Assembly (NCBI GenBank): GCA_016342345.1
Contig: JAEINO010000025.1
Span: forward strand, 1-51,390
Direction: 5' to 3'
Source: Pseudodesulfovibrio sp.
Lineage (GTDB): Bacteria; Desulfobacterota; Desulfovibrionia; Desulfovibrionales; Desulfovibrionaceae
Length of the DNA stretch: 51,390 bases
The translations under genes were made by a program, and so were the position numbers. Of this stretch, positions 3,816 to 42,441 are shown piece by piece (position 1 is the first letter of the stretch; each line of letters opens with the position of its first letter). The notes under the pieces are model-generated. The model was not told where the DNA came from, searched no databases, and was given only the letters and a program-made list of their open reading frames with translations.

Positions 3816-3827
3816 CCAGCCAACAAG

Positions 3828-3857
3828 AAGAGCCACCGGAATACCGATGGCTCTTTC
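3828..3857. terminator. Bidirectional hairpin terminator
   Basis: AAGAGCCA-C-CGG pairs with CCG-A-TGGCTCTT around a 4-base loop. T residues follow on the plus strand, and AAG runs flank it on the other. It lies between the convergent lipoprotein gene (ending 3815) and korC (ending 3881) and can serve both. Confidence 0.75.
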
Positions 3858-3880
3858 CATTTGAATCATACAAAATCGAA

Positions 3881-12926: not shown

Positions 12927-15900
12927 TGCAGGTCACCGAACTTTTCATCAAACGCCCGGTCATGACAACCCTGACCATGCTGGGGCTCCTGTTTTTCGGC
13001 ATCGTCTCATACACGAAGATGCCCGTAAGCTATCTGCCAGCCGTGGAATTCCCAACCATTCAGGTCAGTGCCTACATGTCAGGTGCCAACCCGCAAACGA
13101 TGGCCTCCAGCGTGGCATCCCCCCTGGAACGCGAATTTTCATCCATCGCCGGACTTCAATCCATGAGTTCGGTCAACTCTCTTGGAAGTACGCTCGTCAC
13201 TCTCCAGTTTGAACTTGAGCGCAACATAGACGGCGCGGCTCTCGACGTTCAATCCGCCATTTCCCGAGCGGAAAGCGATCTGCCGGACGAAATCACCGAG
13301 ATGCCAAGCTTCGAAAAAGTGAACCCGGCAGACAGCCCCATCCTCTACATGTCCTTGAAGTCAGATGCCCTGCCCATGTCAACGGTCAACGACTACGCCA
13401 AGACGTTTCTCACCCAGACCATTTCCATGATTCCAGGCGTTGCCCAAGTGGAAATATACGGCGAAAAACAATATGCAGTCCGCATTCGTCTTGATCCAAG
13501 GGAACTTGCATCCCGAAAACTCGGCATAGACGAAGTCAAGGATGCCATCGCCGATGCCAACGTCAACCTCCCCCTCGGCACATTGGAAGGGACAAAACAA
13601 TCCCTGATGCTGGACGCCGATGGACAACTCCTCACGGCCGAAGCTTACCACGATATCATCGTCGCCTATCGTGACGGCCAACCCGTCCGGCTCTCCGATC
13701 TGGGCGTGGTTGAAGATGGCGTCAAGGATGAACGGTTCAGTTCATGGATCAACGAGGACACGAACCTGACCATCGCCGTCAAGCGGCAACCGGGAACCAA
13801 CACCATCGAAATTGTCCAGGACATCCGCGACAAACTTCCCTGGATACAATCCCAAATGCCCGCGTCCATCATCATGAAAATTGTTCACGACAAAAGCATC
13901 TTCATCGATGACTCCGTGCAGGACGTGAAATTCACACTGGGCCTGGCCGTGGCTCTCGTCATTCTGGTGGTATTCATCTTCCTGAGAAACCTGGCCGCCA
14001 CATTCATCGCATCCATCGCCATTCCATTTTCCATCGTGGCCACCTTCGCAATAATGCTCTCCATGGACTTCACCCTTGACACTTTTTCGCTCATGGCTCT
14101 CACCCTTTCAGTGGGATTTGTTGTCGACGATGCCATCGTCATGATCGAAAACGTCGTGCGCCATATGGAAATGGGAAAAACGCCGATGCAAGCTGCCAAG
14201 GATGGAGCCAGCGAAATCGGATTCACAATCATTTCAATGACGCTTTCGTTGGCTATCGTCTTCGTACCCATCATGTTTATGGCAGGCATCATTGGCCGAG
14301 TGCTTCATGAATTCGCCATGACCATCACCGCCGCAATTCTGGTTTCCGGCGTGGTTTCCCTTTCGCTGACCCCCATGCTTGCCAGTCGCATGCTCAAGAA
14401 AAAGAGCCGAATCACCGAATCAGATCCTGTTTTTGACCGCCTCATGGTCGCCTACAAGGCAAGCCTTGCATACTGCATCCGGCACAGGGCAATCACCATG
14501 ATCGCGTCCGGCATTCTCTTCGCTGCCACGGCAGGAATATTCATAATCATTCCCAAGGGATTCCTGCCCAGCGACGATCAAGGCACCTTCATGGGCTTTA
14601 CCCAAGCCAGACAAGGCATTTCCTACGAGGCCATGCTTGATCTGCAAAAACAACTCATCCCGATCTTCAAGAAAAGCCCCGCCCTCAAAGACCAGATCCA
14701 AATCATCGGGTCTCCGCTCTCCAATCAGGGCATGGCTATCGGCATCCTGAAATCCGCCGACCATCGGGATCAAAGCCTTGATGAAGTCATCGGAAAACTC
14801 TGGGGACCAACCAATTCAGTTCCGGGTCTGGAAACATTTCTCGTCAATCCACCAATGATCGAAATCGGAGGCAAGCAGTCCAAGGGCGATTACATGTTTA
14901 CCCTGCTCTCTCCAGACTCGCAGACTCTGTACAAGGGAGCCGAGGAATTCCTTGCAGAATTGCGCAAAAACCCGCTTATCACCGGAGTTTTCAGCGATTT
15001 GCAAATATCCACTCCACAAGTGGAAATCAACATTGACAGGGACATGGCCGGAAGCCTCGGCATTTCGGTCAATGCCATTGAAAGCGCACTTTTTTCGGCA
15101 TACGGAGAAAGACAGATTTCCACAATTTATGCCGTGAATGATGAATACAAGGTCATCCTTCAACTCAAACCGGAATTCCAGAAAAACGCCGATGCATTGT
15201 CCATGCTCTATATTCGTTCGGATTCCGGGAACCTCATCAGACTGGATGCCCTGGGTGAAATTCGGGAAACAGTTGGCCCGGTCACGGTCAACCACACCGG
15301 CCAACTTGAATCCGTGTCCTTCTCCTTCAATGGCGCACCCGGAACGGCCATGGGTCAGATAACCCAGATAGTGAATCAATTGGCTCGCGAAAAACTCCCG
15401 GAAACAATCAGCACGAACTTCGAGGGAACCGCCGGAGCATTCGCTGAATCCATGAACTCGCTCTACTTCCTGCTCTTCATCGCCATCGTCGCCATCTATA
15501 TCCTGCTCGGCTGTCTGTATGAATCATTCATCCATCCGCTGACCATCCTTTCGGGCCTGCCATCTGCCGCATTTGGCGGTCTGGCAACGCTCATGCTCTT
15601 CGGCTACGACCTTGATCTCTATGGCATGGTTGGCATCATCCTGCTCATCGGAATCGTAAAGAAAAACTCCATCATGGTTGTCGATTTCGCCATTGAGGCC
15701 GAGAAAAAAGGGGTCACGCCAGCAGAAGCCGCCTTTCAAGGTGCGACCACTCGCTTCCGCCCCATTCTCATGACCACCCTCGCTGCCATCATGGGCGCAC
15801 TTCCTATCGCACTCGGCATCGGTGCTGGCGCAGAAGTCCGCAGACCTCTCGGACTCGCCGTTGTCGGCGGCCTAGCCTTTTCGCAAATCGTGACTCTCTA

Positions 15901-16999: not shown

Positions 17000-17091
17000 T
17001 GGCGGAGAGGAGAGGATTCGAACCTCCGGACGAGTTACCCCGTCTCTGGTTTTCAAGACCAGCGCATTAAACCGAGCTCTGCCACCTCTCC
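17000..17091 (-). tRNA. tRNA-Ser (anticodon TGA)
   Basis: A 92-base class II tRNA lies on the minus strand. The 7-bp acceptor stem GGAGAGG/CCTCTCC is followed by discriminator G and an encoded CCA. The anticodon loop CTTGAAA reads TGA (Ser). There is a long variable arm, and the T-loop is TTCGAAT. A strong terminator follows. It shows no sign of an inserted element on either side. Confidence 0.95.
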
Positions 17092-23938: not shown

Positions 23939-25288
23939 ATGCAAAAAACAGATCATTTCGGACTTGATTTCGCCACCTTCGCAAGACTCATCGACAATCT
24001 GCACGACGAGGTTTTCATCTTCGACAACAACTACCGCATGTTGTACGTAAACAAGGCCTGCGAACGCCACTACGGTTTCACGCAGGAAGAAATGATTGGA
24101 CTGCAGTTCTGGGAAATAATCAACAAACATCATGCATGGAACCGTCCCGCCCTGCCCGCAGTATACAAGTACAAACGGCCGGTCAAACAGGAACAGAAAA
24201 CCTATCTGGGCCTGGACGTTCTGACAATCGCTATCCCCATTCTTGATGACAAGGGGGAAGTGGAATACGTGGTTCTGAGTATTCGGGACAACGCTCATGA
24301 AGGGCAGATTCCCCGGTTGGATGAACTCGACACAGAGCAGTATCTTTCTGATAAAACACACCCCAATGACATCATCTACCGCAGCAAACTCATGGAAGAC
24401 GTCATGGATTCGGCTCGCAAGGTGGCAAATCTGAGTGCTCCCTGCCTGCTGCTGGGCGAATCCGGAAGTGGTAAAAGCCTGTTGGCGAAATACATCCATG
24501 TCAATAGCAAACGTGCCGACAAACCATTCGTTGTTGTCAACTGCGCGGCCATTCCGGAACAACTCTTCGAATCCGAACTCTTCGGCCATGTACGCGGGGC
24601 GTTCTCAGGAGCCACCCATGCGCGAGGCGGACTGTTTGCTAAAGCTGAAGGCGGGACCCTTTTTCTTGATGAAATATCCGAGTTGCCCCTGCCCATGCAG
24701 TCCAAGCTGCTCCATGCAGTTCAGGAAATGGAATATCGCCCGGTCGGCAGTTCCACGACCGTTGAGGCAAACGTACGAATTCTTGCAGCATCCAACAGGA
24801 ACCTCGAACGCATGGCAAGAACAGGAGCCTTCCGTCAGGACCTCTATTTCAGACTCAATGTCTTTGACATTACCATCCCCCCGCTCAGAGAGCGCAAGGA
24901 TGATTTTTTGCCACTGATGTTCTATTTTCTCAACCATTTCTGCAAGCAGCACGGCAAGGGGAAACGCCTGTCCACCGATGCCCAAGCTCTGCTCAGTCAG
25001 CACTCATGGCCGGGTAACGTCCGCGAACTCGCCCATCTGGTAGAAAGACTGGTCGTCACCATCGAAGACGAGCTCATCACCAAGGAACACCTCCCAACCT
25101 CGATTTATGAAACCAGGGCACAGATCATTACGGCCACCTCTTCAGGTTCACTGGATAAAGCCATCGCCGAAATGGAACGCAAACTGGTGATGGATGCATA
25201 TAATGTACATGGGAGCACACGCAAGACTGCCGAAGCCTTGAATATAAGCCAATCCCGCGCTTCTCGCCTCATCAGAAAATACACTTAA
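23939..25288 (+). CDS. PAS-domain sigma-54-dependent activator with TyrR-like HTH
   Basis: The 449-residue enhancer-binding protein has a PAS sensor (about residues 12-115), a linker, and an AAA+ domain. This has Walker A GESGSGKS (173-180), the sigma-54 contact loop GAFSGA (220-225, Ser in place of the usual Thr of GAFTGA), Walker B TLFLDE and WPGNVREL. The C-terminal HTH STRKTAEALNISQSRASR resembles that of TyrR, whose sites are palindromes with an N6 centre. Just downstream lie three such palindromes and a sigma-54 promoter. It probably activates the EamA/hydroxylase operon in response to a small ligand. Confidence 0.88.
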   Translation: MQKTDHFGLDFATFARLIDNLHDEVFIFDNNYRMLYVNKACERHYGFTQEEMIGLQFWEIINKHHAWNRPALPAVYKYKRPVKQEQKTYLGLDVLTIAIPILDDKGEVEYVVLSIRDNAHEGQIPRLDELDTEQYLSDKTHPNDIIYRSKLMEDVMDSARKVANLSAPCLLLGESGSGKSLLAKYIHVNSKRADKPFVVVNCAAIPEQLFESELFGHVRGAFSGATHARGGLFAKAEGGTLFLDEISELPLPMQSKLLHAVQEMEYRPVGSSTTVEANVRILAASNRNLERMARTGAFRQDLYFRLNVFDITIPPLRERKDDFLPLMFYFLNHFCKQHGKGKRLSTDAQALLSQHSWPGNVRELAHLVERLVVTIEDELITKEHLPTSIYETRAQIITATSSGSLDKAIAEMERKLVMDAYNVHGSTRKTAEALNISQSRASRLIRKYT

Positions 25289-25294
25289 ACCTCT

Positions 25295-25388
25295 GAGTCA
25301 CAAAAGACTCACGAGTCAATCCAGACTCACACCTCAAAACCCAATCCCCCGTTAGCTTCACCCACACATCGCGAGTCTTTTTTGACTC
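25295..25388 (+). promoter_or_regulatory. Three GAGTC-N6-GACTC sites, likely upstream activator sites
   Basis: Exact palindromes lie at 25295-25310 (spacer ACAAAA), 25313-25328 (AATCCA) and 25373-25388 (TTTTTT). Their arms are GAGTC and GACTC, each followed by A. Centres are 18 and 60 bases apart and lie about 105-190 bases before the sigma-54 promoter. The N6 layout suits the TyrR-like HTH of the adjacent activator. Confidence 0.8.
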
Positions 25389-25482
25389 ACACCCCACAAT
25401 AGATTGACCGATTGATCAATCACTACACAATCGTATCATGCTGATATCATGACGTTTTTTATATAGAGCGTTAATATCAAGC

Positions 25483-25500
25483 TTGGCACAGCGATTGCTT
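25483..25500 (+). promoter_or_regulatory. Sigma-54 promoter
   Basis: TTGGCACAGCGATTGCTT carries GG and GC elements with exactly 10 bases between them, close to the consensus TGGCAC-N5-TTGC. It drives the gene at 25720 across a leader of about 210 bases. The rest of 25289-25719 holds no supported gene. Confidence 0.85.
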
Positions 25501-25719
25501 TTACAGATTAAAAATAATGTCAGAAGTGACCTTTTAAAACTATACCTTGAGGGGGGTAAATCTCACGCCATTAACCGTTGTTAGAGAAACACCACATTCA
25601 CGGATTCCCAAAATGCAAAAGCTTTACTGCGTGAGCATGGGGGCAGCCACATCAACATTTGAGTGTTGAGACAAGGCTAGGGAAACCCGGTGAATCACAA
25701 AACATTTCGAGGAGGAAGT

Positions 25720-26646
25720 ATGTTTAAGAATCAAGTCATTGTCGGATCACTTTACGCTCTGCTTGCCACAGTTCTCTGGGCAGGCGCATTCGTAGTTGCC
25801 CGTCTGGCCGTTGGCCAAATTTCTCCCATGACACTCGGCGCATCGCGCTGGTTCATGGCTCTTGTAATCCTCTCCTTTTTCACACTGCCAAAAGTCAGGA
25901 AGGAATGGCATATTGCCAAGAAATTCCTGCCTCAAATCATCGCAGCAGCCGGTCTTGGTGTGGCCGCATATTCCCCGCTGAGCTACTTCGCTGCCCAAAC
26001 AACATCTGCAATCAACCTGTCACTCATTTCAGTGACCACGCCCATCTTCATCGTCATCATCGCCTCGCTGATGGGCCAGAAGCAGTCCCTGAACACATGG
26101 CTCGGTTGCACCGTGGCCCTGATCGGCTCCTTCTATCTGGTATGCAACGGCGAGATCGGACGCCTGCTGGCTCTCCAGTTTGCAGCCGGTGACCTCCTGA
26201 TGCTCGCTGCAGCCATTGGTTTTGCCATCTACAGCCTGATTCTCAAGAAAATCCCCGATGGTCTGTCCCAGGCAACCATCCTTACCCTGATGGCATTCTT
26301 TGCAGTGCTCATGCTGATTCCATGCGTCATATGGGAATCCACCCAGCCTTCCATGCTCTTCAACATGAACGGCATTGTCTTCTTCAGCATCACTTTCTCT
26401 GCCATCTGTTCCTCAATCATCGCATGGTGGACCTGGAATATCGGCCTTGAAAAGGCAGGACCGGAACTCTCCGGCATGATCTATTACAGCCTGCCACTGT
26501 GGGGCGGCTTCTTCGCATTCGTCTTCCTTGGCGAAACAATGGGCATGACCCATCTTGTCAGCGGAATCCTGATCATCGGCGGCATATTCTGGGCCAGTCG
26601 CGGCACCAAGAAAGAGACCGCAGAAGCAATATCTAAAGAAGCCTAA
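25720..26646 (+). CDS. EamA/DMT family transporter
   Basis: The 308-residue protein has about ten membrane helices in two EamA repeats (ATVLWAGAFVVARLAVGQIS; GDLLMLAAAIGFAIYSLILKK). This family exports or imports small metabolites, often amino-acid derivatives or purines. GGAGGA seven bases before the ATG at 25720 fixes the start; the in-frame ATG-like start at 25690 has no site. It is the first gene after the sigma-54 promoter. A GC-rich hairpin separates it from the hydroxylase genes, so it may be made at a different level. Confidence 0.83.
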   Translation: MFKNQVIVGSLYALLATVLWAGAFVVARLAVGQISPMTLGASRWFMALVILSFFTLPKVRKEWHIAKKFLPQIIAAAGLGVAAYSPLSYFAAQTTSAINLSLISVTTPIFIVIIASLMGQKQSLNTWLGCTVALIGSFYLVCNGEIGRLLALQFAAGDLLMLAAAIGFAIYSLILKKIPDGLSQATILTLMAFFAVLMLIPCVIWESTQPSMLFNMNGIVFFSITFSAICSSIIAWWTWNIGLEKAGPELSGMIYYSLPLWGGFFAFVFLGETMGMTHLVSGILIIGGIFWASRGTKKETAEAISKEA

Positions 26647-26812: not shown

Positions 26813-27316
26813 ATGACTCAAAACGAAAAACTGACAAAGCTCATCCAACTGACAATAAACGGAGAATCCCGTCCGTTGTTAGTGGAAGCGCACTGGACCC
26901 TCTCAAAAGTCCTGCGCAACGACTGTGGTCACACCGGCACCAAGGAAGCATGCAACGAAGGCGCATGTGGCTCTTGCACCGTACTCATTGATGACATAGC
27001 GACCCCGGCCTGCATGGTTCTCGCCATAGAACAGGAAGGCAAGAACATCGAAACCATCGAAGGGTTGTCCAAAGACGGACAATTGCATCCCATTCAGGAA
27101 GCATGGCTTGAGGAATATGGTGCCCAGTGCGGCTTCTGCTCGCCCGGCATGATCATGTCCACCAAGGGCCTGCTGATCAAAAACGCCAACCCCACCGATG
27201 ACGAAATCAAGGAAGCCCTGGGTGGCAACCTCTGTATCTGCAGCAACTACGAGCACATCATCAATGCCGTGAGAAGTGCGGCCAGAAAGATGTCAAAGGA
27301 GCAGGCGAATGTTTAA
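26813..27316 (+). CDS. Molybdenum hydroxylase, [2Fe-2S] subunit
   Basis: The 167-residue electron-transfer subunit of an xanthine-dehydrogenase-type enzyme has a plant-type ferredoxin domain: GTKEACNEGACGSCTVL, with the fourth Cys in TPACM. A helical second [2Fe-2S] domain follows: AQCGFCSPGM, then GNLCICSNY, where CxC is usually CRCTGY. It passes electrons from the molybdenum centre to FAD. Its stop overlaps the start of the catalytic subunit by 8 bases. AAGGA precedes the ATG. Confidence 0.92.
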   Translation: MTQNEKLTKLIQLTINGESRPLLVEAHWTLSKVLRNDCGHTGTKEACNEGACGSCTVLIDDIATPACMVLAIEQEGKNIETIEGLSKDGQLHPIQEAWLEEYGAQCGFCSPGMIMSTKGLLIKNANPTDDEIKEALGGNLCICSNYEHIINAVRSAARKMSKEQANV

Positions 27317-29678
27317 CACCAAAGCGGTAGGAACTGCCGTCCGTCAGAAGGATGGACGACCTCGCGTCACAGGTGAGGCAAAATTTTACGCTGACGTTCT
27401 CTTCCCTAACATGTTGCAGACCAGAATCCTTCGCAGCCCGTATCCGGCAGCGGACATTGTCAGCATTGACACAAGCGAAGCCGAGGCTTTGGCAGGCGTA
27501 CGTCTGGTCATGACCTACAAGAACTTCCCCAAGGCGTTTCGTGACACTCTCTATTACGTTGGAGATCTGGTTGCTGCGGTTGTTGCCGATGACGAAACAA
27601 TTTGTGAAGAAGCCCTTGAACTGATCAAAGTCGAATACACCAAGAAAAAGTTTGTCCTGAGCCTTGAAGAAGCCATAGAGCCCGGCTCCACCCAGGTATT
27701 CGAGGGCGTGGAAAACTGCCACGACTGGGAATTCCACTACACCATGAGTGATCGTGACCCGGAAACAAAACTCTTCAAGACCAAGACCCAAACAGAGTCC
27801 AACGCATTCGGCGACATTGATAAAGGATTTGCTGAAGCAGATGTCATCGTTGAACAGAAAGGCATCAAATACGCCTACTGCAAATCTCCGGCAATGGAAC
27901 CTCGTGGATGCTCTGCCAACTTTGATGGCAACAAGCTCAACGTCTACACCCATTCTCAAGGGTTGCACGACGAAAAGCTGTGTCTGGCTCAAGCATTGGA
28001 CATTGATTCTCATCTGCTCAATTACGTTTCTCCGTATACCGGCTCCAGCTTTGGCGGCAAGAACGCATTCCCGCTTGATCGGAACATTGCATCCCACTAT
28101 CTGATGATAGCCGGTCTTGCCACCCTGCACCTGAGAAAGCCCGTGCACTGCGGGTATTCCCGCGAAGAGGAAATGCTCTGCGGCTGGTCCCGCGGCAGCA
28201 TCGGCGATGTGAAACTCGGCTTCAAGAAAGACGGCACCATGACCACCATGGACTTCTTCCATTGGCAGGAAGCCGGTTCCGGCGGCGATAAATATCCGCC
28301 CAAGAACGCGGTCCTCGCAACGGGTTCAGTGCTTTACTCGCACAACGTTGAACACCAGCGCAGCAGAATCCGTTATGTCCACACCAACAGATTCTGCTGT
28401 GGCGGCTGGCAGGGATACGGCGTTCCCGAAGGAACGTACGCGGTTGAAACCACGGTGGACATCGCAGCCTATGAGATGGGCATTGATCCGGTGGAACTCC
28501 GCAAAAAGAACTGCATGCGAGCCGGGGATGTTGATTCCGGATGGGACCCGCTGACTTACAAATCCTGCTACATATCCTCTTCCGGCATCCGCGATTGCCT
28601 TGACGCTGGCGCAAAACACGTGGACTGGAAAAAAACATGGGAACACCCCAATAAAAAGACCGGACGCATCCGTCACGGCATGGGCGTTGCCATTTTCGCC
28701 ATGGCTGCAGGTCGTCCCGGACCTGGCAACTCCAGTGAAGCCATGGTCAAGATATTCCCTGACGGTTCCGCTGCCCTGGTTTGCGCAATCGCCGACATCG
28801 GTCAGGGACAGCACACCGTGCAGACCCAGATCGTGGCTGACGTACTCGGCCTCCCCTACGAAAAGATCGGCCTTGTCTGTCATGACACCGATTCCACTCC
28901 CTTTGCCACTCTGGTGGCCGGCAGTTGCGCAACATGGATTCAAGGCTGGACCACTTATGGAGCAGCCATGGATGCAAAACGCCAGGTTCTCGAACTCGCG
29001 GCTGACAAACTGAATGTTGCTGCCGATGAATTGACCATGGATGAGCATGGCGTGCATGTCACCGAGGACACGGACACGAAAATATCGTTCTCCGATGCAT
29101 TCGGCACACGCGGCCATTACGGCGGCATCCACGAGGTCATTGGCTACCATGTGCACAATTCACCTCACGCCACAGGTCACAAGGACGGCAAGGCAGACCA
29201 AATATATATTCCCAAGGAAAAAGGCGCACAGTTTATCACCATGGATGTGGATACCGAAACCGGCATCATCTCGAATGTCCATGTGGTCATGGCCCAGAAC
29301 GTGGGCAAGGCACTCAATCCGAAAGTAGTCGAAGGGCAGCTCCTGGGCTCACGCCATGGCGTGGAAAACGGCCTGCTTGCAAACGACTGCATCGTGGACA
29401 AGCGCAACGGCTGGCTCATGACTCCGAACTGGGTGGATTACCGACACACCACGGCAATGGACTGCGACGTGACTCCGCTGGTTATTGAAAAACCAGGCGA
29501 CCTGAGCCATCCGCTGGGTGCCACTGCATGCGGTGAAGGTGCAGCCTGTCCGACATTGGCTTCGTTCTCCAACGCCCTGTACAACGCCATAGGTGTCCGC
29601 ATTCTGGAAACGCCGTTCACTCCGGATAAAATCCTCACGGCCCTCGGTAAAATCCCGGCCAAAAAGGGGAAGAAATAA
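27309..29678 (+). CDS. Molybdenum hydroxylase, molybdopterin-binding catalytic subunit
   Basis: The 789-residue catalytic subunit binds the molybdenum cofactor and hydroxylates an unknown, probably N-heterocyclic or aromatic, substrate using water oxygen. It shows the XDH plan: GRPRVTGEAKFYADV at the start, PYTGSSFGGKN, the active-site loop GGWQGYGVPEG (Gln where the xanthine enzymes usually have Arg), ADIGQGQHTV and the catalytic Glu in CGEGAACPTLA. Start at 27309 is set by AGGAG. Selenium in such enzymes is a labile ligand added later, not selenocysteine, so none is expected in the sequence. Confidence 0.9.
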   Translation: MFNTKAVGTAVRQKDGRPRVTGEAKFYADVLFPNMLQTRILRSPYPAADIVSIDTSEAEALAGVRLVMTYKNFPKAFRDTLYYVGDLVAAVVADDETICEEALELIKVEYTKKKFVLSLEEAIEPGSTQVFEGVENCHDWEFHYTMSDRDPETKLFKTKTQTESNAFGDIDKGFAEADVIVEQKGIKYAYCKSPAMEPRGCSANFDGNKLNVYTHSQGLHDEKLCLAQALDIDSHLLNYVSPYTGSSFGGKNAFPLDRNIASHYLMIAGLATLHLRKPVHCGYSREEEMLCGWSRGSIGDVKLGFKKDGTMTTMDFFHWQEAGSGGDKYPPKNAVLATGSVLYSHNVEHQRSRIRYVHTNRFCCGGWQGYGVPEGTYAVETTVDIAAYEMGIDPVELRKKNCMRAGDVDSGWDPLTYKSCYISSSGIRDCLDAGAKHVDWKKTWEHPNKKTGRIRHGMGVAIFAMAAGRPGPGNSSEAMVKIFPDGSAALVCAIADIGQGQHTVQTQIVADVLGLPYEKIGLVCHDTDSTPFATLVAGSCATWIQGWTTYGAAMDAKRQVLELAADKLNVAADELTMDEHGVHVTEDTDTKISFSDAFGTRGHYGGIHEVIGYHVHNSPHATGHKDGKADQIYIPKEKGAQFITMDVDTETGIISNVHVVMAQNVGKALNPKVVEGQLLGSRHGVENGLLANDCIVDKRNGWLMTPNWVDYRHTTAMDCDVTPLVIEKPGDLSHPLGATACGEGAACPTLASFSNALYNAIGVRILETPFTPDKILTALGKIPAKKGKK

Positions 29679-30661
29679 TGAAAAGCTTCAAGCACATTGA
29701 CGCAGCCAGCGTCGAAGAAGCCGTATCGCTCCTGCAAGAGAGCGAAGGTCCCGCCTACGTCATCGCAGGTGGCAGCGATCTCCTGGGCTGTCTCAAGGAC
29801 AACCTCTGGATGGAATACCCCAAAGCAATCGTCAACCTGAAGACCATCCCCGGACTCGACACGATCAGTGTTGATGAAGACGGTCTTCACATTGGCGCAC
29901 TCGTCACCCTCACCAAGATTGCCGAGTCCGAAACGGTCAAGGAATTCTGGCCTGGTTTGGCTGAGGCAGCCCGCCGCACGGCTTCCCCCCTGCTGCGCAA
30001 CATTGGTACCATAGCCGGAAACATCTGCCAGGAAAACCGCTGCTGGTATTACCGCTACCCGGACAAGATCGGTGGTCGCATCGACTGTGTCCGCAAGGGC
30101 GGCAAACGGTGCCTGGCCGTACCCGGCGACCACCGCTACCACTCCATCTTCGGTGCCGTGAACAAATGCATAGCAGTGAATCCCAGCGACACGGCCCCGG
30201 CCCTGATCGCCCTGGATGCCACTATCAAGACAACCAAACGCACTATCCCGATTGACGAGTTCTTCTCTGCCGGGATGGGCGCACAGTCCACGACTCTGGA
30301 CCGCGACGAAATCGTCACGGAAATACTCGTGCCTCGTCCCGCACAGGAATGGACCAACGCATTCAGGAAAATCGCCTTCCGCAAGTCCATCGACTTTGCA
30401 CTGGTAAACTGCGCTGCCGCCCTGACCTTTGCCGATGGCAAAGTGACATCCGCACGTATCTGCCTGAACGGCGTGCACAACAACCCACGCCGTTGCGTTG
30501 AATCAGAAGCAGCCCTCATCGGCAAGCCCCTGAACGAAGCAACAGCGCAAGAAGCCGGAGAACTGGCCGTGGCCGAAGCCAAACCGCTTCTCCAAAACGG
30601 ATTCAAGGTTCCAATGGCCAAGACCATAGTGATCGACACTCTCATGGATTGCGTCAAATAA
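29678..30661 (+). CDS. Molybdenum hydroxylase, FAD subunit with extra Fe-S-like insertion
   Basis: The 327-residue subunit is a CoxM/XdhB-type FAD domain (YVIAGGSDLLG; SPLLRNIGTIAGNICQ). Right after that, residues about 115-160 contain four Cys in NRCWYYR, RIDCVRKGG, KRCLAV and NKCIAV. This order resembles the [4Fe-4S] insertion of 4-hydroxybenzoyl-CoA reductase beta subunits, rather than a simple xanthine dehydrogenase FAD subunit. Its ATG overlaps the catalytic subunit stop by one base. Confidence 0.88.
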   Translation: MKSFKHIDAASVEEAVSLLQESEGPAYVIAGGSDLLGCLKDNLWMEYPKAIVNLKTIPGLDTISVDEDGLHIGALVTLTKIAESETVKEFWPGLAEAARRTASPLLRNIGTIAGNICQENRCWYYRYPDKIGGRIDCVRKGGKRCLAVPGDHRYHSIFGAVNKCIAVNPSDTAPALIALDATIKTTKRTIPIDEFFSAGMGAQSTTLDRDEIVTEILVPRPAQEWTNAFRKIAFRKSIDFALVNCAAALTFADGKVTSARICLNGVHNNPRRCVESEAALIGKPLNEATAQEAGELAVAEAKPLLQNGFKVPMAKTIVIDTLMDCVK

Positions 30662-30684
30662 CGCACTGCAAGGAAATAAAAGGC

Positions 30685-31299
30685 ATGGAACAGAAACTAG
30701 CTAATATATCCGGTGTCATTCTCGCCGCCGGACAAGCTTCCCGGATGGGCAAAGACAAACTCTCCCTGCCCTTCCGGGGCATGCCCATGCTCCAACACGT
30801 GATCAACGCGGCACGGCGGTCCTGTCTCAAGGACGTGACCGTCGTGCTGCCACGAGACTCGAAACTGGAGCAGACTCTTGATCTGACCGGTTGCAGCATC
30901 GTGACCAGCATGCACCGCGAACTCGGCCAGGCCGAATCTCTCCAGGCGGGGTTACGCAATGTCATGGACCACGCAGATGGATGCATGGTCCTGCTCGGGG
31001 ACCAACCGCTGATCACCTCCGATACCCTCGACAGATTGGCATGGGCGTTCTCCCAACACCCTGACTGCTGGGTGGCTCCTGTACAGGAAGACATGCGCGG
31101 CAACCCGATCACCATTCCTTCAACCTGGTTCCACAAGGTGTTCGAACTTGAAGGCGACACCGGGGCCCGCCCTCTGTTGGCCGAACGCGGACTTGCTCTG
31201 CGTCTGGTACGAATCAACGAAGTGGGACCATTCATCGACGTTGACACCGAACACCAGTACCAGCATCTTCTTGAACGCTACGAAGCCAGGACCGCATGA
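30685..31299 (+). CDS. MobA/MocA-like nucleotidyltransferase
   Basis: The 204-residue product has the nucleotidyltransferase fold with LAAGQASRMGKDKLSLPF (the GxxxRMG-K signature), GDQPLITSDTL and a C-terminal DVDTEHQY. MocA-type enzymes attach CMP to molybdopterin for hydroxylases of the XDH family, matching the neighbours. I chose the ATG at 30685 because AAGGA lies upstream; a start at 30649 adds 12 residues. It overlaps the next gene by 4 bases. Confidence 0.85.
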   Translation: MEQKLANISGVILAAGQASRMGKDKLSLPFRGMPMLQHVINAARRSCLKDVTVVLPRDSKLEQTLDLTGCSIVTSMHRELGQAESLQAGLRNVMDHADGCMVLLGDQPLITSDTLDRLAWAFSQHPDCWVAPVQEDMRGNPITIPSTWFHKVFELEGDTGARPLLAERGLALRLVRINEVGPFIDVDTEHQYQHLLERYEARTA

Positions 31300-32126
31300 G
31301 GCACGCCATGAGCAACTTGACATCACCCACCATCGTCATCCGTGGTGCAGGAGACCTCGCAACCGGCGTGGCACTCCGCCTGCACAGGGCAGGATTCAAG
31401 AAAATCGTCCTGCTGGAAACAGACCACCCTCTGGCGGTACGCCGCACAGTGGCATTTTCCGAAGCCGTGTATCATGGCCGCATGACAGTGGAAGGAATCA
31501 CCGCCGTATTCCTTGGAACAGCCGAATGCGTACCAGACATATGGGCCACCGGAGACATCCCCATCCTGTCTGATCCAGCCGCCGAAACCCTTCACATAAT
31601 CCGCCCTGAAGTGCTGATTGATGCCATCATCGCCAAACGGAATCTTGGTACGAACATGTCACAAGCACCTCTCGTCATAGGACTGGGGCCGGGATTTGTG
31701 GCTGGTGAAGACGTACACCGAATAGTGGAAACCAAACGAGGCCATCATCTCGGCAGAGTCATCACAGCAGGATCAGCCGAACCAAACACGGGCATACCCG
31801 GAAATATCGACGGATACACCATCGAACGTGTCTACTGGGCTGAAAACCAGGGAATGTTCTCCACGTCGCTCAATATCGGTGACATGATTGCCGCAGGAGA
31901 TACCCTCGGCACAGTGGACAACGTCCCTGTAATTGTGAACATTTCTGGTGTCGTACGCGGTCTTCTGCGCAACGGCACCCCAGTCTCCAAGAAAACAAAG
32001 CTGGGCGATGTGGACCCGAGAGGAATCATCTCCTATTGCGGAGAAGCATCCGACAAGGCCCTGTCCATCGGCGGCGGCGTGCTTGAAGCGATCACCGCAC
32101 ACATGTTTTCCGGAGAAAATGCATGA
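31296..32126 (+). CDS. yqeB: YqeB family selenium-dependent molybdenum hydroxylase protein
   Basis: The 276-residue product matches the EF2563/YqeB family, which travels with yqeC, selD and selenium-dependent molybdenum hydroxylases. It starts with a Rossmann-like VIRGAGDLATGVALRL and ends with DPRGIISYCGEASDKALSIGGGVLEA, shortened here to its key IGGGVLEA end. Its exact reaction is not known; it is thought to help make or insert the labile-selenium cofactor. An in-frame start at 31308 with GAGG upstream is also possible. It overlaps yqeC by ATGA. Confidence 0.88.
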   Translation: MRHAMSNLTSPTIVIRGAGDLATGVALRLHRAGFKKIVLLETDHPLAVRRTVAFSEAVYHGRMTVEGITAVFLGTAECVPDIWATGDIPILSDPAAETLHIIRPEVLIDAIIAKRNLGTNMSQAPLVIGLGPGFVAGEDVHRIVETKRGHHLGRVITAGSAEPNTGIPGNIDGYTIERVYWAENQGMFSTSLNIGDMIAAGDTLGTVDNVPVIVNISGVVRGLLRNGTPVSKKTKLGDVDPRGIISYCGEASDKALSIGGGVLEAITAHMFSGENA

Positions 32127-32956
32127 ATACGCACACGGGCCACTCAGGCCCGGAAATTCTCATTGCGCCGGAACACCGGCTCATCACCCTTACCGGGGCG
32201 GGAGGGAAAACCTCCCTTAGTCGTTGGCTCGCTTCACACCTCCAATTGATACCTCGGCGAGTCATCATAACCACAACGACAAAGATCCTCCCGCTCCCCG
32301 GTATGACTACCATCCTGCATGAAGACGGCCCAGATTTCCTGGGTCGGATTCGCCGCGCACTCGACCAATCCCCCAGCATCATGGTTGCCAGCAGATTCGA
32401 TCCGGCCACGGGCAAGATCATCGGTCTGGACAAGGACATCATTACCTTCATGCACAAATCCAGACTGGCGGACACCATTCTGGTTGAAGCAGACGGCGCG
32501 GCCCGCAAACCCCTCAAGGCCCCCAACTGGCGCGAACCAGTCATTCCAGCTGGGACAGACCTGTGTATCGGCATCATGGGACTTGATGCAGCCTATCGCC
32601 CGCTCACCGAATCAAATGTACATCGTCATGAAATATTCTCGCAAATAACAAGCCTGAGGCCCAGCGAAAAGATCACACCAGCACACATGACCCGAATCGC
32701 CATGGCCCCGAACGGATTGTTCAAAGGATGCCCGCCGGATTGTGAACTCAGCGTTTTTCTGAACAAGACTGACATTCCCGAAGGAAAGGAATTGACTGAA
32801 GAATTCAACAGCACAGTCACCCGCAACGGACAGGCTTCATTCATAAAATGGTTTGCCGGAAGCACACAAGAACGCCGCATGATTCAAATTGGTCAGTATG
32901 CACAAGCATCACGGATTTTTTCCAGCACCCGCCTTGCTTTTTCACACCAGCTCTAA
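32123..32956 (+). CDS. yqeC: YqeC family putative selenium-cofactor protein
   Basis: The 277-residue product has a P-loop near the start (TLTGAGGKTSLSRWLA) and ADTILVEADGAARKPLKAP, which fit the YqeC family. That family is named in the selenium-dependent molybdenum hydroxylase system and probably uses a nucleotide. Its function is predicted only from its constant company with YqeB and the hydroxylases. It overlaps yqeB by four bases and is followed, 15 bases on, by the BCCT transporter. Confidence 0.85.
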   Translation: MNTHTGHSGPEILIAPEHRLITLTGAGGKTSLSRWLASHLQLIPRRVIITTTTKILPLPGMTTILHEDGPDFLGRIRRALDQSPSIMVASRFDPATGKIIGLDKDIITFMHKSRLADTILVEADGAARKPLKAPNWREPVIPAGTDLCIGIMGLDAAYRPLTESNVHRHEIFSQITSLRPSEKITPAHMTRIAMAPNGLFKGCPPDCELSVFLNKTDIPEGKELTEEFNSTVTRNGQASFIKWFAGSTQERRMIQIGQYAQASRIFSSTRLAFSHQL

Positions 32957-32971: not shown

Positions 32972-34558
32972 ATGTCCAAAAAGGAAAAGGCCGCATCTAT
33001 CACACTCACATCCTGCCCGCCTGAAAAAGGTGGAGTCTGCGCCATCTGTTTTTTCGGCGCACTGATCATCATCCTCGGAGCCTGTATTCCTCTTTTCATG
33101 TATCCTGAAGCAGGAGAGCGGGTCATCAACACAATGTTCACCTTTGTGACCGTTGAAATGGGATGGCTCTACATGATCGCGGCAATGGGATCCTTTATCC
33201 TGCTCATGTGGTTCGCCTTTGGTCCCTTCAGCCACAAACGACTTGGCGACAAGATTGAATACTCCACTTTTTCCTGGATCGGCATGCTCTTCTGCGCAGG
33301 CGTTGGTGCCGGCATAATGTTCGGCGGTTCCATTGACTGGGCCTACTACATGTCCTTTCCCATGCACGGCGAACCAGCCGGTTCATGGAAAGCCGCCGAA
33401 TGGGGCACAGCGTACGGCATGTTCCACTGGGGCCCCATCTGCTGGGCCATCTACGCTACCCTGGCCGTGCCCATCGGCTACAGCTACTACGTCAAGAAAA
33501 TCCCCATTCTGAACATTTCCCAGGCCTGCACCGGCCTTCTCGGAGAACGCACACACGGCTGGCCCGGCAAGGTTATCGATATCCTGTTCATGACCGGCCT
33601 GGTGGCTGGTTCGGCCACGGCACTGGGTCTTGGCATCCCCATTGTGGCTGCGGCATTATCGTCCGTTACCGGCCTGGAGCATTCCTTTACGCTGGAATTC
33701 GGCACCCTGATTTTCGTGACCCTGATCTTTTCGGTCAGCTCCTGCCTGGGACTGAAAAAAGGCCTGAGCAAGCTCTCGGATTTCAATGTTTACATGGCCA
33801 TGGGATTGATGCTGTTCGTCTTCATTGTCGGACCAACCCTGTTCCTCACCGATATGGCCATCACGTCACTGGGCCTGATGGTTTCCGAATTCGTTCGCAT
33901 GGCCACTTGGATGGACCCGGTAGGCAAAAACGGCTTCACCCAGTCCTGGACCATATTCTATTACGCATGGTTCGTTGCCTACGCCCCATTCATGAGTTTG
34001 TTCATCGCCAAGATTTCGCGTGGTCGCACAGTGCGCCAAGTGGTCCTCGGACCGGTCATCGTGGCATCATTGGGCTGCGGCTGTTTCTACTTGATATTCG
34101 GGAATTTCGGCCTGCATCTTCAGCTCACAGGCCAACTCGATGTGGTCAACATGGTCAAGACCGTCAAGGGTGCCACTGCCATCATGGCCATTGCGGACTT
34201 CATCCCGTTTGCCCCTGTCTACAAACTGGTATTTGCCGGAGTCACGGCCATATCCATGGCCACCACATTTGATGCGGTTTCATTCGCACTGGCCGCAACC
34301 ACCACGGTCAAGCTCACCCCCGACGAAGAACCAGCCCGCTGGAATCGTCTGTTCTGGGCAATTTCACTCGGATTGGTACCCACAGGCATCATGCTCATCG
34401 ACGGCCCGCTCTCGGTTCTGCAAACAGCCTCGATAGTGGTGGGCTTGCCAGTGCTCATAGTGGTCTGGATCGGCGTGGCATCCTTTCTCACGGAATACCA
34501 TCGCACGGGCTGGGTTGAGGCAGGGGCAGAGCCTCTCTGCAAACCTGTTGATCTGTAA
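32972..34558 (+). CDS. BCCT family transporter
   Basis: The 528-residue protein has about twelve membrane helices and the betaine/carnitine/choline transporter signature near residue 325: WTIFYYAWFVAYAPF followed by KISRGRTVRQ. In BetP the substrate box has three Trp; here the matching positions read Trp, Phe, Tyr, so the substrate may differ from glycine betaine. The family takes up quaternary ammonium compounds with Na+ or by exchange. GAGGGAGGAG precedes the start. Its place inside the hydroxylase operon suggests that it imports the hydroxylase substrate. Confidence 0.87.
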   Translation: MSKKEKAASITLTSCPPEKGGVCAICFFGALIIILGACIPLFMYPEAGERVINTMFTFVTVEMGWLYMIAAMGSFILLMWFAFGPFSHKRLGDKIEYSTFSWIGMLFCAGVGAGIMFGGSIDWAYYMSFPMHGEPAGSWKAAEWGTAYGMFHWGPICWAIYATLAVPIGYSYYVKKIPILNISQACTGLLGERTHGWPGKVIDILFMTGLVAGSATALGLGIPIVAAALSSVTGLEHSFTLEFGTLIFVTLIFSVSSCLGLKKGLSKLSDFNVYMAMGLMLFVFIVGPTLFLTDMAITSLGLMVSEFVRMATWMDPVGKNGFTQSWTIFYYAWFVAYAPFMSLFIAKISRGRTVRQVVLGPVIVASLGCGCFYLIFGNFGLHLQLTGQLDVVNMVKTVKGATAIMAIADFIPFAPVYKLVFAGVTAISMATTFDAVSFALAATTTVKLTPDEEPARWNRLFWAISLGLVPTGIMLIDGPLSVLQTASIVVGLPVLIVVWIGVASFLTEYHRTGWVEAGAEPLCKPVDL

Positions 34559-34593: not shown

Positions 34594-35619
34594 ATGAAAA
34601 CCATGAACGTTGAAAACGCGGTCGGCACCGTATTGTGCCATGACATTACCCGCATAGTTCCGGGCGAAGCCAAAGGCCCTGCATTCCGCAGGGGGCATGT
34701 GGTCACCGAGGCCGACATCCCCACCCTGCTGGATATCGGCAAGGAACATCTCTACGTGTTCGATCCGGGCGATGGATATGTCCATGAGGATGATGCAGCC
34801 CGCCGCATTGCCAAGGCAGCCGCAGGCCCCGGCATAGACCTGAGCACCCCGGTGGAGGGCAAGATCACCCTGAGTGCCTCCATTGACGGGCTGGTGGACA
34901 TCGACACTGACACGCTTTTCAAGCTCAATTCCGTGAAAGACGTCATCTTCGGCACCATCCACACCAATCAACTGGCCAAAAAAGGCCGCAATCTGGCAGG
35001 CACCCGCGTCATTCCACTGGTGGTCCCGGAAGAGATCGTGGCCGAAGCCGAAACCATTCTCCGCGACAACGCTCCGCTTATTCAGATTCGCCCTCTCAAG
35101 GCCTGTCGCGTGGGTGTTGTCACCACCGGCAGCGAGGTCTACAGTGGCCGCATCAAGGACAAGTTCGGCCCGGTTATCAGAAAGAAATTCAAGAGTTACG
35201 GCAGCACTGTCATTGACCAGCGGCTTGTGTCGGACCAGCAGGACATGACCGTAAAGGCCATCCACGACCTGCTTGCCGAAGGTGCCGACTTCATTGTCCT
35301 GACCGGTGGAATGTCCGTGGACCCGGACGACCTGACCCCGGCCTCCATCCGTGCAGCCGGAGCAACAGTCACGACCTACGGCGCACCGACCTTTCCCGGA
35401 GCCATGTTCATGCTCGCCCATATCGGCGATGTGCCAGTGGTTGGCCTTCCGGGATGTGTCATGTATTACAAGGCGAGTATTTTCGATCTCATCATGCCTC
35501 GCATCCTGGCCGGAAAGGAAGTCACCCGCGACGACATCATCGCACTGGGACACGGCGGATTCTGCGAAGGCTGCAAGGAATGCCACTATCCGGCCTGCGG
35601 ATTCGGCAAAGGAGCATAA
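34594..35619 (+). CDS. MoeA/MogA-like molybdopterin-binding protein with Cys-rich tail
   Basis: The 341-residue product has a MoeA-like N-terminal part and a MoCF-binding domain (GVVTTGSEVYSGRIKD, LTGGMSVDPDDLTP, PGCVMYYKASIFD). The last 25 residues carry CEGCKECHYPACGFG, four clustered Cys that could bind metal or sulfur/selenium. It is found here between the BCCT transporter and XdhC, so it probably serves this hydroxylase rather than general cofactor synthesis. A partner role in selenium or sulfur transfer is only inference. Confidence 0.8.
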   Translation: MKTMNVENAVGTVLCHDITRIVPGEAKGPAFRRGHVVTEADIPTLLDIGKEHLYVFDPGDGYVHEDDAARRIAKAAAGPGIDLSTPVEGKITLSASIDGLVDIDTDTLFKLNSVKDVIFGTIHTNQLAKKGRNLAGTRVIPLVVPEEIVAEAETILRDNAPLIQIRPLKACRVGVVTTGSEVYSGRIKDKFGPVIRKKFKSYGSTVIDQRLVSDQQDMTVKAIHDLLAEGADFIVLTGGMSVDPDDLTPASIRAAGATVTTYGAPTFPGAMFMLAHIGDVPVVGLPGCVMYYKASIFDLIMPRILAGKEVTRDDIIALGHGGFCEGCKECHYPACGFGKGA

Positions 35620-35623
35620 AAGC

Positions 35624-36631
35624 ATGCGTGACGTATTTGAAGCCATCCTGCAATCCCTTGAACAGGATCAGGCCATTGTCCGTGCCTCGGTCATGAAAAG
35701 TTCGGGGTCCACGCCCCGTGCTGCCGGAGCCTCCATGGCCGTGTTCCCGGACGGTGCCATTATCGGCACCATTGGCGGCGGACTGGTCGAAAATGCAAGC
35801 ATTCACGCAGCAGTACGGATATTAAAAGACGGCGCATCCGAAATCCGGGAATTCGACCTCACGGGCAAGGACGCGGCCTCACAGGGCATGGTCTGCGGCG
35901 GGGAAATGACCATCCTTCTCGACCTCATGACCCCATGCGACGAACACATCTCCCTCGCAAAAGAAACCCTGAAGCTGTACAAGGCCGGGAAACCCGGCGT
36001 ATTCGCCACCATTTTAAACACGGACAAGACCGTTATCCGCAGGGGACTCTGGCCTCTTGGCGGCGAACTCCCGACAGGCGTGACGGAATTCACCATACCA
36101 GATCAGGCCCGCGCCCCGTTTGTCCACCCCCTTGAGAACGGGACACTCTTTGCCGAACCGCTGATTGTTGACGAGACCGTCCACTTCATCGGAGCAGGAC
36201 ACGTTGCCCAGGCCACGGCACGGCTTGCGGCCACCACCGGCTTCCGGGTAAACGTCATTGATGATCGCGCAGAATTCTCCAACGCGGCCCGGTTCCCGGA
36301 TGCGCAAAACGTGCGGGTCGTGGAAAGCCTCGACAACTGCCTGCCGGACTCGCTCACCCAGGACGACTATCTGGTCATCATGACACGCGGCCACCTGCAC
36401 GACAGAAACGTGCTGGCCCAGGCCCTGAAAACAAAGGCCGGCTACGTGGGCATGATCGGCAGCAAGAAAAAACGGACAACCGTCTACCAATCCCTGCTCG
36501 ACAACGGCTACACCCAGGACGATCTAAACCGCGTCCACTGCCCCATTGGCCTGCCCATCGGAGCCGAAACCCCGGAACAAATCGCGGTCAGCATCATGGC
36601 CGAACTCATTAAGTTCCGCGCCGGAATTTAG
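35624..36631 (+). CDS. XdhC/CoxI family maturation factor
   Basis: The 335-residue product belongs to the XdhC family, which binds molybdenum cofactor, protects its sulfuration (or selenation) and hands it to the apoenzyme. SSGSTPRAAGASMAV at the N-terminus and GTIGGGLVE, then GQGMVCGGEM-type CGGEM, are family signs. The C-terminal Rossmann part has FIGAGHVAQATARLAA and ends with GLPIGAETPEQIAVSIMAEL. GGAG lies before the ATG at 35624. It is the last gene of the operon. Confidence 0.9.
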   Translation: MRDVFEAILQSLEQDQAIVRASVMKSSGSTPRAAGASMAVFPDGAIIGTIGGGLVENASIHAAVRILKDGASEIREFDLTGKDAASQGMVCGGEMTILLDLMTPCDEHISLAKETLKLYKAGKPGVFATILNTDKTVIRRGLWPLGGELPTGVTEFTIPDQARAPFVHPLENGTLFAEPLIVDETVHFIGAGHVAQATARLAATTGFRVNVIDDRAEFSNAARFPDAQNVRVVESLDNCLPDSLTQDDYLVIMTRGHLHDRNVLAQALKTKAGYVGMIGSKKKRTTVYQSLLDNGYTQDDLNRVHCPIGLPIGAETPEQIAVSIMAELIKFRAGI

Positions 36632-38267: not shown

Positions 38268-39548
38268 ATGGCTATCAAAAAGTTCTCCACCGACTATCCC
38301 GGCATCCGTTACCGCGAGCATGCCAGCCGCATGTGCGGTCGTAAGCTCGATCGCTACTACTACATCCGCTATCGTCCTGAGCGCGGTGGTAAGCAGCGCG
38401 AAGAAGGCATCGGCTGGACAAGTCAAGGCTGGAGCCCTCGCAAAGTCTTTGAAGACGTTCTCAACCCGATCCAACGTGCCTGTGATACCGGAAAAGGTCC
38501 GCGCTCCCTCAAAGAAATGCGCGAGGCTGCAAAGCTGACCGAAGCCGAAATCGAAGCCGAGGCCGTCCAGGAGGAGAAGCAAGGCATCACCTTCGCCGAA
38601 GTGGCCGGCCGCTTCGTTGAGTGGGCCAAGGAAAACAAAGCCTCCTGGAAGGACGATGAAACACGCCTGCGCCTGCATGTGACCCCTCGCTTGGGCGAGA
38701 AGTCCATGACCACTATCACCACCAACGACATCGAGCGGATGAAGACCCAGCTCAAGCACATCAAACCGAAGCGCGGAAGGCATGCCACCTTGCGCCCGGC
38801 CACCATCACGCAGTGCCTTGCCGTGACACGCACCGTGTTCAACTTCGCCATGGAAACGCCGCTGAAGGACGACAATCCCGATGTTATGGTATTCACTGGC
38901 CGCAACCCGGCCCGTATGTCCTCCAAATTCAAGGGCGGCGTTCGCCCCCTGAAATTCGACAATCGCCGTATGCGGATATTTAACAATGAAGAGCTGGGGA
39001 AGCTCATGGAGGCGACGTGTGTTTCCTCTCAGGATTTGCACGATATTAGCCTCCTCGCCCTGGACGTGGGCATCCGCCGCCGCGAAGTCGTGGCACTGCG
39101 TCCGGAGTTCTTTATCCGCGAATCTATGGCCCTCAAAATTTTTGACCCGAAGAACAGTCTGACCCGCACCGTGTTCATCGGCTCCCTGATCCCCAAGGCC
39201 GCCGACATGATGCTGGCCCGCATGGACCGACTCCCGAAAAGAACCAACTGGATATTTCCCGGTCGATGGGGCGACCAGCGAGACCTGACCTCGATTACAC
39301 GACAATTCGGTGTGGTCTGCGGTTGGCTCAAAATCAATGATCATGTCACGGACGATAGGATGCGGGCCGTGTTCCACTCCCTGCGCCACACTCACGCCAC
39401 GAGAATGCTGGAGAAAGGCGTCGATATTTACTCCCTCAAGGACCTCATGGGCCATGAGGATATCGCGGTCACCGAGCGGTATCTCCACCTCTGCGACCAT
39501 GCCAAACGCAAGAAGGCCCTCAAGGGCGGCGGGTTTGATATTAGATAG
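38268..39548 (+). CDS. int: Phage tyrosine-type integrase
   Basis: The 426-residue recombinase has an N-terminal arm-binding part (PGIRYREH...YYYIRYR), an SAM-like core-binding domain around residues 105-200 and a catalytic domain. Catalytic residues visible are Arg in GIRRREVVAL, HSLRHTHAT (His-x-x-Arg) and LMGHEDIAVTERYLHL with the nucleophilic Tyr. It begins about 100 bases inside the tRNA-like att site and reads away from it, as expected for prophage integrases. Its end overlaps the convergent xis-like gene by 8 bases. Confidence 0.93.
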   Translation: MAIKKFSTDYPGIRYREHASRMCGRKLDRYYYIRYRPERGGKQREEGIGWTSQGWSPRKVFEDVLNPIQRACDTGKGPRSLKEMREAAKLTEAEIEAEAVQEEKQGITFAEVAGRFVEWAKENKASWKDDETRLRLHVTPRLGEKSMTTITTNDIERMKTQLKHIKPKRGRHATLRPATITQCLAVTRTVFNFAMETPLKDDNPDVMVFTGRNPARMSSKFKGGVRPLKFDNRRMRIFNNEELGKLMEATCVSSQDLHDISLLALDVGIRRREVVALRPEFFIRESMALKIFDPKNSLTRTVFIGSLIPKAADMMLARMDRLPKRTNWIFPGRWGDQRDLTSITRQFGVVCGWLKINDHVTDDRMRAVFHSLRHTHATRMLEKGVDIYSLKDLMGHEDIAVTERYLHLCDHAKRKKALKGGGFDIR

Positions 39549-42231: not shown

Positions 42232-42441
42232 TTATTTTTCGTAGTTCCAGTTTTTCGCAAGTCGTTTTTTATATGCTTCCATTTCTTCGTCTGATGCTTT
42301 TGCTTCGGCTTCAAAACATACAACTGACGCCATTTTCCAACCGGCAAACAGTGGGCTGAAAAAGCACCGGAGAATGAATCCGATAGGCAGCATCCACACC
42401 CCCAGCACTGCGACCAATACTCCAATATATCGTTGAATCAT
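42232..42441 (-). CDS. Hypothetical small membrane protein
   Basis: A 69-residue product with two likely membrane helices (YIGVLVAVLGVWMLPIGFIL and a shorter second) and a charged tail (SDEEMEAYKKRLAKNW). Its ATG overlaps the stop of the C5 methyltransferase gene (ATGA), which supports translation. Function unknown. Confidence 0.55.
   Translation of the reverse strand: MIQRYIGVLVAVLGVWMLPIGFILRCFFSPLFAGWKMASVVCFEAEAKASDEEMEAYKKRLAKNWNYEK

Follow-up and report, generated by a model that had tools for sequence, protein, structure and literature searches.

A predicted sigma-54 activator switch with repeated GAGTC-N6-GACTC dyads ahead of a molybdenum hydroxylase operon in Pseudodesulfovibrio

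The proposed switch and its closest described relatives

In the one-component sigma-54 regulons of Desulfovibrio vulgaris, as presented in the main text of PMC4641369, the activator gene often lies beside its target, with upstream sites and a -24/-12 promoter. The same layout was found in a 51,390-nucleotide stretch of Pseudodesulfovibrio sp. DNA (assembly GCA_016342345.1, contig JAEINO010000025.1; hereafter the window), in which a gene for a sigma-54 enhancer-binding protein, three GAGTC-N6-GACTC dyads and a -24/-12 promoter precede a molybdenum hydroxylase operon. That main text makes no mention of xanthine, molybdenum, GAGTC, TyrR, betaine, choline, carnitine, BCCT (betaine/carnitine/choline transporters) or selenium. 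Likewise, the sigma-54 activator of the DioR group in Clostridiales is predicted to control genes of the yqeB/yqeC type (PMC6615313). Compared by the published target list, the DioR targets resemble the purine-type cluster of Escherichia coli (ygeW, ygfK, ssnA, pbuX), and the main text of PMC6615313 mentions neither BCCT, betaine, carnitine nor choline.

Also YgeV of E. coli K-12 is a sigma-54 activator, and its gene adjoins xdhABC and lies near yqeB, yqeC and mocA. YgeV differs from the window regulator in its length (592 aa), its longer N-terminal part and its different C-terminal helix-turn-helix (HTH), with 34% identity over 454 aligned positions, and no BCCT gene is among the 19 features shown for its locus. 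TyrR has an HTH_50-type C-terminus like that of the window regulator, and its dyad, TGTAAA-N6-TTTACA, likewise has an N6 centre, but the half-site is different. The best NCBIfam match of the regulator was PrdR, the proline reductase activator, yet with 334.8 bits against a cut-off of 795; the PrdR motif is described as TGT-ACA with a spacer of 10-12 bp (PMC6615313). In the literature searched, judged partly by title, no paper was found with the dyad motif in the spellings used or with a BCCT-linked group of sigma-54 activators. The regulator group is new, within the known scheme of sigma-54 activators.

The switch had been proposed in an initial annotation of the window, and the comparative evidence supports it well: judged from the sequences, the regulator would bind the sites and activate the promoter. 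The regulator gene (23939..25288, plus strand) was identified by Pfam and translation and encodes 449 aa, with a PAS domain at aa 19-117, an AAA+ domain at aa 145-311 and an HTH_50 domain at aa 404-448. All three domains of the proposed PAS/AAA+ activator beside the dyads were thus recovered with Pfam; the AAA+ domain matched PF00158, the sigma-54 interaction domain, with 220 bits against a cut-off of 20, and HTH_50 reached 30.9 bits against 27. The C-terminal HTH had been called TyrR-like, which holds as far as the HTH_50 domain is concerned; TyrR itself is a distant relative only, as the regulator reached 276.4 bits against the TyrR NCBIfam cut-off of 576. The recognition helix reads SQSRASRLIRK.

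The three palindromes between activator and operon were confirmed as exact: GAGTC-ACAAAA-GACTC at 25295..25310, GAGTC-AATCCA-GACTC at 25313..25328 and GAGTC-TTTTTT-GACTC at 25373..25388. These candidate activator sites, to which no strand is assigned, are all aligned in orthologues. Also the promoter proved to be as annotated, with TTGGCAC-N5-TTGCT at 25483..25499 on the plus strand agreeing with the consensus at 12 of 12 positions. Its GG at 25485-25486 and GC at 25497-25498 give the GG-N10-GC spacing, and the transcript start is therefore expected near 25510, some 120-215 bp downstream of the dyads. Together with rpoN, which was found in the window genome, the multiple upstream sites and the -24/-12 promoter agree with control by an enhancer-binding protein. 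Between sites and promoter lies a conserved block, ATCAATCA (25415..25422, no strand assigned), which we take to resemble an IHF site, as a candidate only. Of the 20 loci, 15 have a block of the form ATCA[AG]T[CT]A in this position.

Conservation of sites and promoter, and controls

The orthologous set comprised 20 loci: the window, 16 loci from 148 relatives with regulator identities of 62-77%, two from a 395-genome draw of the phylum, and L054, which entered through a motif scan. The check proposed in the initial annotation, whether orthologous loci keep the motif, was passed in 20 of 20 (window included), as every locus had GAGT-N8-ACTC after the regulator gene and a -24/-12 promoter downstream of the dyads. 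At least 10 of 12 promoter positions matched in all 18 loci scored together, and the promoter was also found in L059, L064 and L065, the latter two being the genomes of L091 and L092. In 19 of the 20 loci the dyads and promoter are followed by the hydroxylase operon, of which short contigs include only the first genes. The exception, L052, has a different operon behind the switch, a diverged and apparently frame-broken regulator gene (13796-15165) and one mismatch in each of its three dyads. The regulator gene appears frame-broken in L051 as well (13806-15151). L054 has its third site and its promoter about 250 bases further off.

When the Bacillota locus L059 was added to the orthologous set, allowing one mismatch gave 59 sites over the 21 loci, and 50 of these were exact; 17 loci had three sites and four had two. 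The dyad consensus was YGAGTCR-NWWN-YGACTCR; across the aligned orthologues the dyad centres are free and the spacing near-constant. The counts over loci are not independent because some of the loci, such as L039 and L040, are near-identical.

As controls served 13 paralogous activators with 37-45% identity to the regulator. No exact dyad was found in their loci of 3.6-4.4 kb, and GAGT-N8-ACTC was present in none of the 13 within 400 bases after the match, which in one of them (L118) ends before the HTH, so that its 400 bases begin inside the gene. A chance origin of the dyads was rejected, as the intergenic region (431 bases) was put through 5000 dinucleotide shuffles and not one exact site arose. 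The window genome (4.15 Mb) holds five exact copies, three of them within 94 bases here, against one copy of a control pattern read backward. One of the two remaining copies is on contig C41 and the other lies inside an open reading frame that by eye appears to be a phage portal gene, with phage genes around it; a wide regulon in this genome is thus not supported. At least one exact dyad was present in 30 of 36 Pseudodesulfovibrio genomes. The 15 genus genomes with an orthologue had 62 dyads and 20 copies of the control pattern, and the 21 without had 27 and 17, respectively. Among the matches listed, which do not cover three of the orthologue genomes, closely spaced dyads were seen by eye only at regulator loci.

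Each dyad arm is at the same time a GANTC methylation site. Methylation is nevertheless thought not to explain the motif, since 57 of 59 left arms have G as the variable base of GANTC.

The site pair alone was also scanned over the genomes of 84,980 species, giving 11 loci against about 0.9 expected with uniform bases. Six of these were at this regulator or its operon: L053, L054, L055, L059 and L062 carry a regulator homologue, and L060 carries the operon, with the regulator found on the same contig (G035). Four of the six (L053, L055, L060 and L062) were contigs already in the sample of relatives (G029, G037, G035 and G017, respectively), and only L054 and L059 were new. In L059, a Bacillota locus, the regulator is 48% identical, the downstream gene is different and the locus has its own -24/-12 promoter. 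The other five loci (L056, L057, L058, L061 and L063) belong to Streptomycetaceae and have no homologue of the regulator. Each has a tandem pair of GAGTC-N6-GACTC dyads at a distance of 18 bases, possibly the sites of another protein.

In the order to which L059 belongs, 297 genomes were searched at E <= 1e-110, and 11 of them (that of L059 included) had homologous genes, 17 in total. Nine of these genes were followed by GAGT-N8-ACTC within 400 bases. The base at half-site position 5 followed the recognition helix: C-G was present in 52 of 61 sites of regulators with an RL(I/L/V) helix and in none of the eight sites of the four Bacillota regulators with a KLY helix, which had two sites each (Fisher p = 2.9e-6, treating sites as independent). 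This test excludes one KLI site (L103b, G-C). The co-variation of the fifth base with the helix speaks for direct reading of these bases by the regulator, although it is not decisive, and it offers a compact test of DNA choice by such activators.

Ligand class, leader RNA and rival explanations

A BCCT gene was present in the fetched stretch of all 17 orthologous loci with a long enough contig (window included; L037, L047 and L054 were too short), the one in L052 being only 36% identical to that of the window. In Bacillota it was found in 14 of 14 neighbourhoods of 10-18 kb, representing 16 of the 17 genes (L059 was too short), with the transporter on the other strand in L100 and L110. None of the 13 paralogue neighbourhoods, three of which covered 5.4-12.3 kb, contained one. 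The partner enzymes vary and include enolase-superfamily, altronate/galactarate-dehydratase-like and carnitine-acyltransferase-like proteins, family III CoA-transferases and pyruvate formate-lyase. As the BCCT gene stays while the partner enzymes change, a betaine-type ligand is suggested, probably a quaternary-ammonium or betaine-type compound.

Taken as a whole, the locus is very probably a one-component sigma-54 activator switch on the hydroxylase operon, and probably a betaine-responsive one. The activator would bind the three dyads upstream of the promoter, and its PAS domain would detect a ligand, most likely a substrate of the betaine type taken up through the BCCT transporter of the operon itself. 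By looping of the DNA, to which an IHF-like bend near 25415 may contribute, the AAA+ ring would then remodel the sigma-54 polymerase held at 25483-25499. In this way ten genes for uptake, hydroxylation and selenium/molybdenum cofactor maturation would be turned on, with a possible further level of control in a leader RNA element. Such a switch would give sigma-54 activators of a group not found in the literature searched both a DNA code that can be tested and a likely class of ligand. Furthermore, as the inducer is probably the substrate, an orphan selenium/molybdenum hydroxylase becomes approachable. A broader picture can be sketched as well, and it must be regarded as doubtful: a BCCT-linked activator group extending across phyla, with PAS domains sensing betaines and a GAGTC/GAGTK code set by two helix residues, a selenium-dependent hydroxylase of sulfate reducers acting on a betaine-like N-heterocycle, and a new leader RNA that adds a check on cofactor or selenium.

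Several observations weigh against the betaine-responsive switch. The L1 loop of the window regulator reads GAFSGA, the canonical form being GAFTGA. The same GAFSGA was present in 18 of the 19 other orthologous copies, with GAFTGA in L023 and GTFSGA in the Bacillota locus L059; Kazakov et al. (2015, PMC4641369) place GAFSGA with the variants expected to keep activation. Four sigma-70-like matches, two of them on the plus strand (25404 and 25412), were found against a shuffle mean of 2.6. The helix/base pattern was counted on the very loci in which it had been noticed; the four KLY genes may belong to a single clade, and most of the RLI sites are those of close relatives. Eight of the 17 Bacillota homologues, six of them with an RLI helix, lacked GAGT-N8-ACTC over the 400 bases that follow the gene, and the motif is therefore not universal in the wider family; among these eight, a one-mismatch site was present downstream in L109 and upstream in L100, L102 and L106. 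Concerning the transporter, four of the five BCCT queries (named BCCT by Pfam) were taken from four of the 14 Bacillota neighbourhoods, and the BCCT controls were paralogues of the window's own order, not Bacillota ones. Some of the Bacillota partners, such as pyruvate formate-lyase, which scored over its cut-off, are not obviously betaine enzymes.

The leader RNA element was located at 25576..25700 on the plus strand, with 76.6 bits (E 1.6e-15) for model R1, whose training set included the window; the window copy is a weak one. Many orthologues share, between promoter and the EamA gene that opens the operon, the sequence UGAGGGAAG, a P1 helix around AUUCACC/GGUGAAU and a CAUG-GGGG-CAU hairpin. 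RNAalifold gave no structure on the MAFFT alignment of the leaders, and the structure was named by hand on an alignment of ten leaders (A2). On A2, pairing was seen in 86.9% of cells for the named structure and in 25-40% when it was slid. Five pairs were changed on both sides, all of them in P1, and none in the GGGG hairpin. Of 500 shuffles, the observed value was reached by nine for cells paired, 16 for pairs with double changes, 26 for cells with them, three for the covariation score and 351 for further pair types. Five leaders folded alone had z values from -1.0 to -4.5, the window -1.82. A helix inside P1 was weakly supported (combined p 0.019) and absent from the window copy (p 0.83).

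Model R1 was strong in 11 of 21 sources, ten of which had trained the model; L040, the eleventh, is almost the same as one of these. The three further matches listed were weak, L047 with E 0.16 and two chance-like ones with E 0.04 and 0.8. Copies were present in the window, L037-L040, L042, L044-L046, L048 and L051. Within the genus the element occurred in 10 of 36 genomes, once each and by its coordinates between regulator and EamA, and within the family in 3 of 149 genomes, once each. It was present in 10 of 12 clusters with the cofactor-maturation genes yqeB and yqeC, the exceptions being L041 and the diverged L043, and in none of the four clusters without YqeB/YqeC hits (L049, L050, L091 and L092, with L064 and L065 searched for the latter two); relatedness may explain this association. 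The leader of L041 (about 3540-5120) is split by what by eye appears to be an insertion of more than 1 kb bearing a transposase. No Rfam family was found for the two leader copies scanned (window and L039), and the only Rfam match in the window stretch was WT1-AS_5, with 17.5 bits against a gathering threshold of 80, on the minus strand over the dyads. The element is a candidate new regulatory RNA.

A leader of this kind raises the question of whether the operon is mainly controlled after initiation, by a riboswitch-like RNA, with the activator providing a basal or co-signal. Conservation at the same position in the genus, pairing well above that of slid structures and the position of the P1 3' strand, which by eye lies just upstream of the ribosome-binding site, all speak for such control. 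It is nonetheless judged quite unlikely: the structure was hand-named from these sequences, ten of the eleven strong hits had trained the model, further pair types were no better than in shuffles, the GGGG hairpin had no double change, the inner complementarity of P1 is weak, the window leader folds little better than its shuffles, and four related clusters have the switch without the leader element. The switch could also be real with a different ligand, a purine or other N-heterocycle, and the BCCT gene incidental, as the gene sets of YgeV and DioR with yqeB/yqeC would suggest. The operon does hold YqeB, YqeC and a xanthine-dehydrogenase-like enzyme, and the E. coli and DioR parallels described above point the same way. 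However, the enzyme genes change across the family while BCCT stays, and YgeV is just 34% identical to the regulator, which makes a purine ligand unlikely.

A third possibility leaves the regulator aside, taking the dyads for sites of another protein or for RNA hairpins, i.e. a terminator or attenuator, after the regulator gene. Their five-base stems and six-base loops would suit hairpins, as would the position of the first dyad, which in 18 of 21 loci starts 4-13 bases after the matched coding stretch ends, and one terminator-like match on the minus strand, and the five Streptomycetaceae loci have site pairs without this regulator. Still, the dyads lie upstream of the promoter and no terminator-like match was found on the plus strand, for which reasons terminators and attenuators were thought unlikely. 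The single match is also fewer than the shuffle mean of 2.5, and the site bases co-vary with the recognition helix of the regulator, so that another protein or hairpins must be considered very improbable. The betaine-responsive activator switch remains the preferred reading.

The operon and its surroundings

Downstream of the promoter, ten genes, all on the plus strand and predicted to be co-transcribed, make up the molybdenum hydroxylase operon. The first encodes an EamA-family transporter (25720..26646, Pfam). It is followed by the three hydroxylase subunits, namely the [2Fe-2S] subunit (26813..27316, Pfam Fer2_2), the molybdenum-binding subunit (27276..29678, MoCoBD_1/2) and the FAD subunit (29678..30661, FAD_binding_5). 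Next are a MocA-like nucleotidyltransferase (30649..31299), YqeB for selenium-dependent molybdenum cofactor maturation (31296..32126; TIGR03309, 339.9 bits against a cut-off of 220), YqeC for selenium cofactor biosynthesis (32123..32956; TIGR03172, 161.5 bits against 73) and the BCCT transporter (32972..34558; PF02028, 440 bits). The last two genes encode a molybdopterin-binding MoCF_biosynth protein (34594..35619, Pfam) and an XdhC/CoxI-like maturation protein (35351..36631, Pfam XdhC_C). The open reading frame of the latter overlaps the preceding gene, and its true start is probably later.

YqeB and YqeC have been proposed as markers of selenium-dependent hydroxylases (Haft and Self 2008, PMC2276186). 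Three markers of selenium-dependent molybdenum hydroxylases, YqeB, YqeC and SelD, were all present in the genome, the selD match lying on contig C20 (3431-4360) with one in-frame TGA, possibly for selenocysteine. The large subunit fell far below the model of selenium-dependent xanthine dehydrogenase (TIGR03311, 150 against 830 bits) and below TIGR03313 (205 against 1102 bits), and the YgfJ/MocA accessory protein was under the cut-off of TIGR03310 (156 against 186 bits). Regulator, dyads, hydroxylase and BCCT gene are kept in L049, L050, L091 and L092, and YqeB/YqeC gave no hits there; selenium dependence may therefore vary inside one enzyme group. The match to the large-subunit gene in L048 (3334-6977) is broken into two parts, with about 1.2 kb between them and a short stretch repeated, owing either to an insertion or to an assembly artefact.

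A search for plasmid relatives gave only partial matches, covering at most 23% of the query among the best 20 of 62 records. The sole tRNA found in the window is at 17000-17091, and there is thus no clear tRNA-borne island. A gene of the phage integrase family lies at 38268-39548, 1.6 kb past the operon end, and a C-5 cytosine DNA methylase-like gene at 42438-43367.

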